This document shows, in pieces, positions 59,364-64,000 of a stretch of DNA of 64,000 nucleotides; position 1 is the stretch's first letter; each line of letters starts with the position of its first letter. The notes under the pieces are model-generated. The model was given only the letters and a program-made list of their open reading frames with translations, searched no databases and was not told the DNA's origin. This stretch comes from Verrucomicrobiia bacterium (GTDB taxonomy: Bacteria; Verrucomicrobiota; Verrucomicrobiia; Limisphaerales; UBA1100): NCBI GenBank assembly GCA_014239365.1, contig JAAZZB010000083.1, forward strand, positions 57,089 to 121,088. The letters are read 5' to 3'. The position numbers were made by a program, and so were the translations under genes.

Positions 59364-62300
59364 TTAGCTGGCGAGAATGGCCAAGGTGTCGTCAGCTTCG
59401 GCTTGGTTGTCGGCGGGGTTGGTGTAGCCCACGCCCACCTCGAGGCCGAGGGATTTCATTTCCTTGACGAGCACGTTGAAGGATTCCGGAATGCCGGCGT
59501 CCAGCGTGTTGTCGCCTTTCACGATGCTCTCGTAAATGCGGGTGCGTCCCTGCACGTCGTCGGACTTGACGGTGAGTAGTTCCTGCAACGTGTAGGCCGC
59601 GCCGTACGATTCCATGGCCCACACCTCCATTTCTCCGAACCGCTGGCCGCCGTACTGCGCTTTGCCGCCCAGAGGTTGCTGGGTGACGAGGCTGTACGGG
59701 CCCACTGCACGGGCGTGAATTTTGTCCGCCACGAGGTGGCCGAGCTTCATCATGTAAATGTAGCCGACCACGATTTCCTGGTCGAACCGATCTCCACTAA
59801 GGCCGTCGTACAAATAAGCCTTGCCGTTTTCGCCGACCAATCGGTCGTTGCTCAATGCCTTCGCCTGTTCGAGGTAACTGCGGATATCTGTTTCCGAAAT
59901 GCCATCGAACACAGGCGTGGCAAAGTGAAGCCCCAACAATTTGGCGGCCCAACCGAGGTGAGTTTCGAGCACCTGCCCCACGTTCATGCGCGAAGGCACG
60001 CCGAGCGGGTTGAGCACGATGTCCACCGGAGTGCCGTCCTTGAGATAAGGCATGTCTTCCTCAGGCACGATCTTGGCGACCACACCTTTGTTGCCGTGGC
60101 GGCCGGCCATTTTGTCGCCAACCGAAAGTTTGCGTTTGGAGGCGATGTAAACTTTCACCTGCTTGACTACACCGGGATCCACATCGGTGCCCGCTTCCAC
60201 GCGGTCCGCTTCATCTGCATGGGCCGTTTTCAAATCCTCAAAACGCTTGAGAAAGGTCCCAAGAATTTCGTTGATCTTGTTGCGGATAGGCGAGGGATCA
60301 ATCTCGATCTTATCATAAACACTCGCCAACTTGCGCAGAAGGGTTTTGGTAATCTTGCGGTTGGCAGGGATGATGATCTCGCCGGTCTCGCTGTTGACCA
60401 CATCGAGCGGGATTTTTTCACCAAGCAAAATGTTCGAGAGCGACTCAGTGAGTTGCTCCTGCAAATCGGTGAGCCGTTTCTTGTATTCATCGGCCACCTG
60501 TTTCTCGCCTTTTTTGCTGGACGTCTTGGTGTCCTTCTCTTTTTTGGAGGAGACCTTCACATCCATCACGATGCCGTAAGTCCCACTGGGAACTTTGAGC
60601 GAGGTGTCTTTCACGTCAGCAGCTTTTTCACCAAAAATGGCGCGCAGCAGACGCTCTTCCGGGGCCAGTTCGGTTTCGCTCTTGGGCGTGATTTTGCCAA
60701 CGAGAATGTCGCCCGGCTTCACTTCCGCGCCCACGCGAATGACGCCATCGGCGCTCAAATCCGCCAACGCTTCCTCGCCGACATTTGGAATGTCGCGCGT
60801 GATTTCTTCCGGGCCAAGCTTGGTGTCGCGCGCGCCCACTTCATATTCCGCGATATGAATGGAGGTGAACACATCATCTTTCACCACGCGTTCGCTGAGC
60901 ATGATGGCATCCTCAAAGTTGTAGCCATTCCACGGCATAAACGCCACGAGCACATTCTTGCCGAGCGCGAGCTCGCCGTCCTCGGTGCAGGGGCCATCGG
61001 CGATGACTTGCCCTTTTTTCAGGGATTCATTGAGGCGCACCAGCGGTTTTTGGTTTACGCAGGTACCGGCGTTGGACCGCATGAACTTGCGCATTTCATA
61101 CACCCACATTCCGGATTCCGGATCGTGTTTGAACTTCCGCTTGTTGACCGGCATTTCGCCATCCTTGGTGATGATAATGCGATCGCCAGTGACCGATGCG
61201 ACTTTGCCGGCCACTTCAGATTTCACCACCGCGCAGGAATCCTCGGCCAATCGCCGCTCCATGCCTGTGGCCACTAAAGGAGCCTCGGTGATCAATAGCG
61301 GCACGGCCTGCCGTTGCATGTTCGAGCCCATCAACGCGCGGTTCGCGTCATCATGCTCGAGGAAGGGAATCAACCCCGCCGCCACGGAAACTAATTGTTT
61401 GGGCGACACGTCCATGTAATGCACGCCCTTGGGCTCCACATCAATGAAGTCACCCCGCCGTCGGCAGGAAACGAACTCGGTCAAAAATTTACCTTTGTCG
61501 TCAATCTTCGCATTGGCCTGAGCCACCGTGAAGTTTTCCTCGGCATCGGCGGTAAGGTAATCGAGCTTATCCGTCACCCGCCCTTTTTCCACTTTACGAT
61601 AGGGGCATTCGAGAAAGCCAAATTCATTCACGCGCGCAAACGTGGCCAAGCTCGCGATGAGCCCGATGTTTGGACCTTCGGGAGTTTCCACCGGACAAAT
61701 GCGTCCGTAATGGCTCGGGTGCACATCGCGCACCTCAAAGCCCGCACGCTCGCGCGACAGGCCGCCCGGGCCAAGCGCGGAGAGGCGCCGCTTGTGCGTC
61801 GTCTCGGCCAACGGATTGATTTGATCCATGAACTGGCTGAGCTGACTGCGCCCAAAGAAATCGCGGATCACTGCCGAAAGCGCTTTCGGGTTCACCAATT
61901 TGGCGGGTGTCATCGTGCCGCTTTCGCGATCGAACAACGTCATCCGTTCTTTCACCAAACGCTCCGTGCGGGCAAGCCCCACGCGGCATTGGTTGGAAAG
62001 TAATTCACCCACGGTACGCACGCGGCGACTGCCGAGGTGATCAATATCGTCCAGCACGCCGTCGCCCATTTTGAGGGTGAGCAAGTAGCGGGTGGCCTCC
62101 ACGAGATCGTGGCGGGTGAGCACGCGGGATTGCTTGGGATCCTCGAAGCCAAGTTTCTGCCCGATCTTGTAACGACCCACGCGACCGAGATCGTAGCGTT
62201 TGGGATCAAAGAACAATCGCTTAAGCAGCGCGCGGCTGTTGGCCACGGTGGGCGGATCTCCGGGGCGCAGACGGCTGTAAATTTCCTTGAGTGCTTCCTC

Positions 62301-63215
62301 CTCGTTATGAGTTGGATCTTTCCTCATGCACTTGATGATGAGCCCTTCATCGCGGGTGGTATCCACCACACGAATTTTGCCCGAGCTCACCGCGGCAATT
62401 TGCTTCAGCACCGCCTTGGACAGCGGCTCGAACGCGCGCGCCACGATCACGTTTTTCTCAGTATCCACCGCGTCCTCCACCAACACGAGGTTGGCCAGGT
62501 TCGCGTGTTTCTCGGCTGCCTTGAGAGAGATTTCTTCGATGTCGTAAAACAGCTCAAGAATTTCTGTGTCCGTGCCCTTGAGGGATTCGTCCTCGAGAAA
62601 ACACAGCGCCCGGAAAAACGTGGTAATCAAAAACTTACGACGCCGTTTCTTGCGATCGAGATACACATACAACAAATCGCTGGTATCATACTGCGCCTCA
62701 AACCACGACCCGCGATCGGGGATGATGCGGAACGAATGCAGCATCTTGCCGTTCGCGTGCTGAGAAGCCTCAAACGCCAGACCCGGCGAACGATGCAACT
62801 GGCTGACCACCACGCGCTCCGCGCCATTAATCACAAAGCTGCCGGAGGGCGTCATCAGAGGCATCTCGCCCATGAACACTTTTTCCTCCTTCACGCCCTT
62901 CCCTTCCTTCAGCTGAAACGTCACGTACAGCGCCGCGCCGTATGTGCCGCCATCCTCGAGGGATTCAAGCCAGGTTTGCTTGGGCGGGGTGATTTCATAG
63001 CTATGAAAATCGAGCATGATATTCCCATCGTAACTTTCGATGGGAAACACTTCTTTGAACACGGCCTGAAGGCCTTCGTTCTTGCGCTTTTCAGGCGCGG
63101 TGTTGATCTGCAGAAAATCGACGTAAGAGTCGCTCTGGATTTCAATGAGGTTGGGCGGTTTAATGACCTCATTAATTTTGCCGAAGTTGATCCGCTCGTT
63201 TTTGTTCGCTGCCAT
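59364..63215 (-). CDS. rpoB: DNA-directed RNA polymerase subunit beta
   Basis: [83 protein letters not shown]. Confidence 0.99.
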
Positions 63216-63395: not shown

Positions 63396-63776
63396 CTACT
63401 TGAGCTCGACCTTCGCGCCGGCTTCTTCGAGCGCTTTCTTGGCCGCTTCGGCCTCGTCTTTGCTCACGCCTTCCAGCAGCGGGGTGGGCGCGCTTTCCAC
63501 AAGATCCTTGGCTTCTTTCAAGCCCAGATCGCTCTTGATGGAACGCACCGCTTTAATGCAGGGAATCTTTTTGCCGCCGTCGCCGACGAAGATCACGTCA
63601 AAGGAATCCTTCTCCTCTGCCGCTTCGCCACCGCCTGCGGCGGGGCCGGCCACGGCCACTGCTGCGGGAGCAGCGGCACTGACGTCCCATTTCTCTTCAA
63701 GTTTTTTTACCAGATCGGCGGCCTCAATCACGCTGAGGTCGCTCAAGCTGTCTACAATTTTATCCAGATCTGCCAT
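63396..63776 (-). CDS. rplL: 50S ribosomal protein L7/L12
   Basis: [37 protein letters not shown]...[72 protein letters not shown]. Confidence 0.99.
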
Positions 63777-63800
63777 TTTGTCTTTTCTGTTGTTTTTTGT

Positions 63801-63871
63801 TTTTGAAGTCCAAAGTAATTAGTCCCTTGATATTCAAGCCCTAAGGCTACTCGTTTTATCTTTTTAGGCAT
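63801..63871 (-). pseudogene. Truncated N-terminus of a TruA-like tRNA pseudouridine synthase (artefactual or chimeric fragment)
   Basis: Minus-strand ATG at 63871: [21 protein letters not shown] then loss of homology as the sequence runs into the rplL upstream region. Confidence 0.55.
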
Positions 63872-64000
63872 GAGAAAATTTTTTCAATAGATTCTGAATT
63901 ATCAATCTATTTTCTTCTGACAGATTTTTTTCAGACAATACTTCTTGAAGTAATTCTTGGGCTTTAGCAGTTTGACCCATCTCAAATAAACTTCTCGATA
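63864..64000 (-). CDS. C-terminal end of a FimV-like TPR protein (partial, AT-rich)
   Basis: Minus-strand translation SRSLFEMGQTAKAQELLQEVLSEKNLSEENRLIIQNLLKKFSHA*, resembling the FimV C-terminal motif 'A..yiEMGD.egArelLqEVL.EG'. Confidence 0.5.
   Translation of the reverse strand, partial: SRSLFEMGQTAKAQELLQEVLSEKNLSEENRLIIQNLLKKFSHA

Follow-up and report, generated by a model that had tools for sequence, protein, structure and literature searches.

The ribosomal operon in the relatives of the host studied here runs rplK–rplA–rplJ–rplL–rpoB. A different neighborhood, in which asd is followed by a fimV-like gene and truA, is found in the SAR86 cluster, a gammaproteobacterial lineage (locus L037 of FRAM18_bin302, and loci L038 and L039); there the stop codon of the fimV-like gene overlaps the start of truA. 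A third point of reference is the chimeric DNA that arises in the laboratory. Among the rearrangements produced by multiple displacement amplification (MDA), more than 85% are inversions, more than 70% of the junctions use 2–21 nt of complementarity, and intermolecular events form a minority (PMC1855051). Inverted chimeric reads also arise from ligation-based nanopore libraries (PMC13141652).

The window analyzed here, a stretch of 64,000 nucleotides from a Verrucomicrobiia bacterium (G000:C40:57089-121088), brings the first two of these neighborhoods into contact. Contig C40 is 121,088 bases long, and base 64000 of the window is its last base. The features at this end are collected in Table 1. 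The final stretch, 63780-64000, is almost certainly a foreign SAR86 tail of ~220 bases that was mistakenly joined at the physical end of C40, and thus an artefact rather than biology. This assessment is based on the foreign origin of the tail, the intact host counterpart on another contig (C11), the position at a contig end, and the gene order conserved in relatives.

Table 1. Features at the rpoB–rplL end of the window, in window coordinates.
Feature	Position	Strand	Evidence
Host rpoB, intact, downstream of rplL in the operon	59364..63215	-	1283-aa ORF
Host rplL (ribosomal protein L7/L12), intact	63396..63776	-	Pfam Ribosomal_L12 1.9e-26, Ribosomal_L12_N 1.4e-18
Join, short shared word	63780..63788	-	AGAAAAGAC in the window, AGAAAAAAC in host C11 and SAR86B; three-way comparison
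SAR86 truA first codons, cut by the join	63780..63871	-	85% to L037; TIGR00071 E 0.003
SAR86 fimV-like C-terminus, cut by the contig end	63864..64000	-	TIGR03504 E 7e-4; L037 order asd / fimV-like / truA

Up to ~63780 the sequence is the host rplL–rpoB locus. Its rplL is 91-95% identical to that of same-genus relatives with the whole gene, and the N-terminal 100 residues of RpoB, encoded next to rplL, are 91-96% identical in the same group. Compared with the operon of the relatives, C40 carries rplL and rpoB in the usual order and with the usual spacing, but rplJ is absent from it. GC content then falls from ~0.55-0.60 to 0.31 in the final 200 bases of the window, which makes this tail the sharpest GC outlier among all contig ends sampled from the assembly. 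The abrupt switch described in a sequence-only reading of the window is therefore real, but it lies at ~63780 and not at 63795-63800.

On the minus strand, the tail encodes a 44-residue C-terminal frame that stops after KKFSHA* and overlaps the ATG of a truA-like frame. Taken alone, the tail peptides give only weak hits, under the curated cut-offs, to two NCBIfam models, FimV_Cterm (E 7e-4) and TruA (E 0.003). Across 84,980 species genomes, a search with the two peptides yielded three loci, all gammaproteobacterial; two come from genomes named SAR86 cluster, and the third comes from a gammaproteobacterial genome in the same family set. DNA alignments of the tail with these three SAR86-type loci are free of gaps and extend over 221, 216, and 215 nt at 85, 84, and 82% identity, so that the fimV-like and truA identities are certain. 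L037 provides the 85% match, which includes an A-rich stretch of the tail; its genes are ordered asd, a fimV-like ORF of 114 aa, and truA, the last scoring 1.1e-66. As in the SAR86 locus, the fimV-like stop in the tail overlaps the truA start, but only ~30 codons of truA are present before the sequence gives way to the host rplL leader. The two sides of the join thus come from different organisms, with an rplL like that of same-genus relatives on one side and DNA 82-85% identical to SAR86 on the other. Both the overlapping FimV-like and TruA-like frames and their gammaproteobacterial origin, as proposed from the letters alone, are borne out, with SAR86 as the donor lineage.

Other members of the SAR86 family gave weak or partial matches to the tail, and among 35 genomes of that family no donor closer than 85% over the tail was found. 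The possibility that the tail derives from a phage was rejected, as only chance-level matches were obtained. When a 12.2-kb SAR86 locus was used as the query for wider SAR86 contamination, this tail was the only match in the host assembly. The assembly contains no FimV_Cterm match over E 0.001, and the host's own complete truA is located on C41. As a separate observation, the SAR86 gene in the fimV position (L037:5791-6135) encodes a very short FimV/HubP-like protein of 114 aa that combines a hydrophobic stretch with the FimV C-terminal part.

The half of the operon absent from C40 was assembled as C11, a contig of 6,844 bases in the same assembly. It carries the first ~70 nt of rplL exactly as in C40, followed by the leader and by rplJ (L10, E 5.6e-42), so that an uninterrupted host rplL–leader–rplJ linkage exists elsewhere in the assembly. 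The next ORFs are presumably rplA, rplK, nusG, secE, and the elongation factor Tu gene, named by sequence recognition. Same-genus relatives retain the C11 leader, GACGACACAAAAAGAAAGAAAAAACAAAATGGCAG, with small indels, and rplJ precedes rplL in every related genome with sequence upstream of rplL. The shared rplL start, the conserved leader, and the rplJ–rplL order in relatives indicate that C40 and C11 are the two halves of one normal operon, rplJ–rplL–rpoB. That the fimV–truA fragment stands in place of rplJ on a chimeric contig, and that a different contig would carry rplJ, had been anticipated before this analysis; C11 and the foreign end of C40 agree with both expectations. In one same-genus genome, rplL is likewise split across two contigs (L034 and L018; G001:C341 and C93), the upstream one of which has rplJ.

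The three-way comparison places the join at a word of ~9 nt, in which a single G of the window (AGAAAAGAC) mismatches both references (AGAAAAAAC). This G occupies the third position of a truA codon, giving AAG for AAA, both of which encode lysine. As the change is silent, the G is probably a base of the donor strain; if so, host sequence starts only within the final two bases of the word, AC, the only ones exact in all three sequences. Another A-rich stretch, CAAAAACAAAAAACAACAG, had been proposed as the join, but it occurs in all three SAR86-type loci and is ordinary, native truA sequence; the join is situated slightly nearer to rplL.

It is important to note that C40 is not the only contig of this assembly with an aberrant end. 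The host sample comprised 103 stretches around contig ends, 96 of them readable, and an exact inverted copy (at least 25 nt) of nearby sequence was present at 10 of these 96. No terminal inverted copy of at least 25 nt was seen in two related genomes, where 37 contig ends were readable. Seven of the 10 self-folding ends are possibly natural elements, as they contain interspersed repeats or hairpin-like sequence. The remaining ends, C16-end, C32-start, and C49-start (L092, L070, and L170), fold back over 121, 77, and 46 exact bases, respectively, inside open frames. The frames at C16-end and C32-start are queA and a DUF885 gene, which an inverted copy would break. By eye, the frame at C49-start resembles an SMC-type ATPase.

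The start of C11 is itself irregular (L003:1-125): 50-60 bases there correspond to the 3' end of rplL in inverted orientation, and GGTTTTTTACC marks their junction with the 5' part of the gene. Judged from this arrangement, the rplL end of C11 is a fold-back chimera separate from that of C40 and would constitute a second chimeric break in rplL. With the seven natural-looking ends set aside, the evidence for folding back rests on C11-start, C16-end, C32-start, and C49-start.

Two further peculiarities of contig ends were recorded. A palindromic element with CCCGGGCCACCGGCCCGGGCTAC as its core is interspersed over ~10 sampled stretches, often at contig ends (for example, at L050, L053, L079, and L003, corresponding to the starts of G000:C12, C15, and C41 and the end of C11), and may represent a natural hairpin repeat at which the assembly breaks. 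The start of C55 (L176:1-500) has a GC content of 0.26-0.30, compared with ~0.45 further in, and contains a methyltransferase-like frame recognized by eye; it may be an AT-rich island or else a further contig end of foreign origin.

Based on these data, a simple model would suggest that a DNA end from the host rplL leader became joined to SAR86 truA–fimV DNA through a short A-rich word that both contain. The most likely cause would be amplification, by mispriming or template switching, and otherwise library preparation; the chimeric read or reads would then have been kept by the assembler as the last extension of C40. The pattern fits the chimeras of strand-displacement amplification, a laboratory step that we infer from the sequences. 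As in MDA chimeras (PMC1855051), a short shared word marks the join, and what may be comparable inverted fold-backs, with an intervening gap, occur at other contig ends; in contrast to the predominant inversions, the join in C40 links two organisms and would belong to the rarer intermolecular type. Since ligation libraries yield inverted reads as well, amplification is a probable rather than a certain cause.

Alternatively, no chimeric molecule may have existed, and the assembler may itself have merged correct host and SAR86 paths at the A-rich word they share. Such a merge appears unlikely. AGAAAAAAC is indeed common to both sources at the join, and SAR86 DNA was probably present in the sample, but the shared word spans only ~9 nt and differs from each reference by a mismatch. 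Assemblers commonly require overlaps longer than this, and the tails that fold back elsewhere in the assembly suggest that chimeric molecules were formed.

That SAR86 DNA was recently and genuinely inserted, or horizontally transferred, between host rplJ and rplL can be considered extremely improbable. The uninterrupted rplL–leader–rplJ arrangement occurs in the same assembly and is retained in all relatives with sequence at this position; both genes of the fragment are truncated, and no mobile-element features were seen; and the fragment stops where the contig does, leaving host sequence on one side only. Against this stands the contiguity of the contig and nothing more, and the very recent insertion that the sequence-only reading had kept as its alternative finds no support. 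It is equally hard to credit a host population with two variants, carrying either rplJ or the SAR86 fragment before rplL. Both arrangements do occur in the assembly, on C11 and C40, but the rplL of C11 is itself broken by a fold-back, the two contigs look like halves of one locus rather than alleles, and an essential ribosomal operon is unlikely to lose both the normal rplL leader and the linkage to rplJ. A very recent real SAR86 transfer into the rplJ–rplL gap in part of the host population is accordingly given next to no credence.

More generally, the chimeric end of C40 is a warning that foreign or folded-back tails, up to ~220 bases long, can terminate the contigs of this assembly, and that gene neighborhoods or transfer events called from contig ends need checking. 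Positions 63780-64000 should be trimmed and have no bearing on the biology of the organism.
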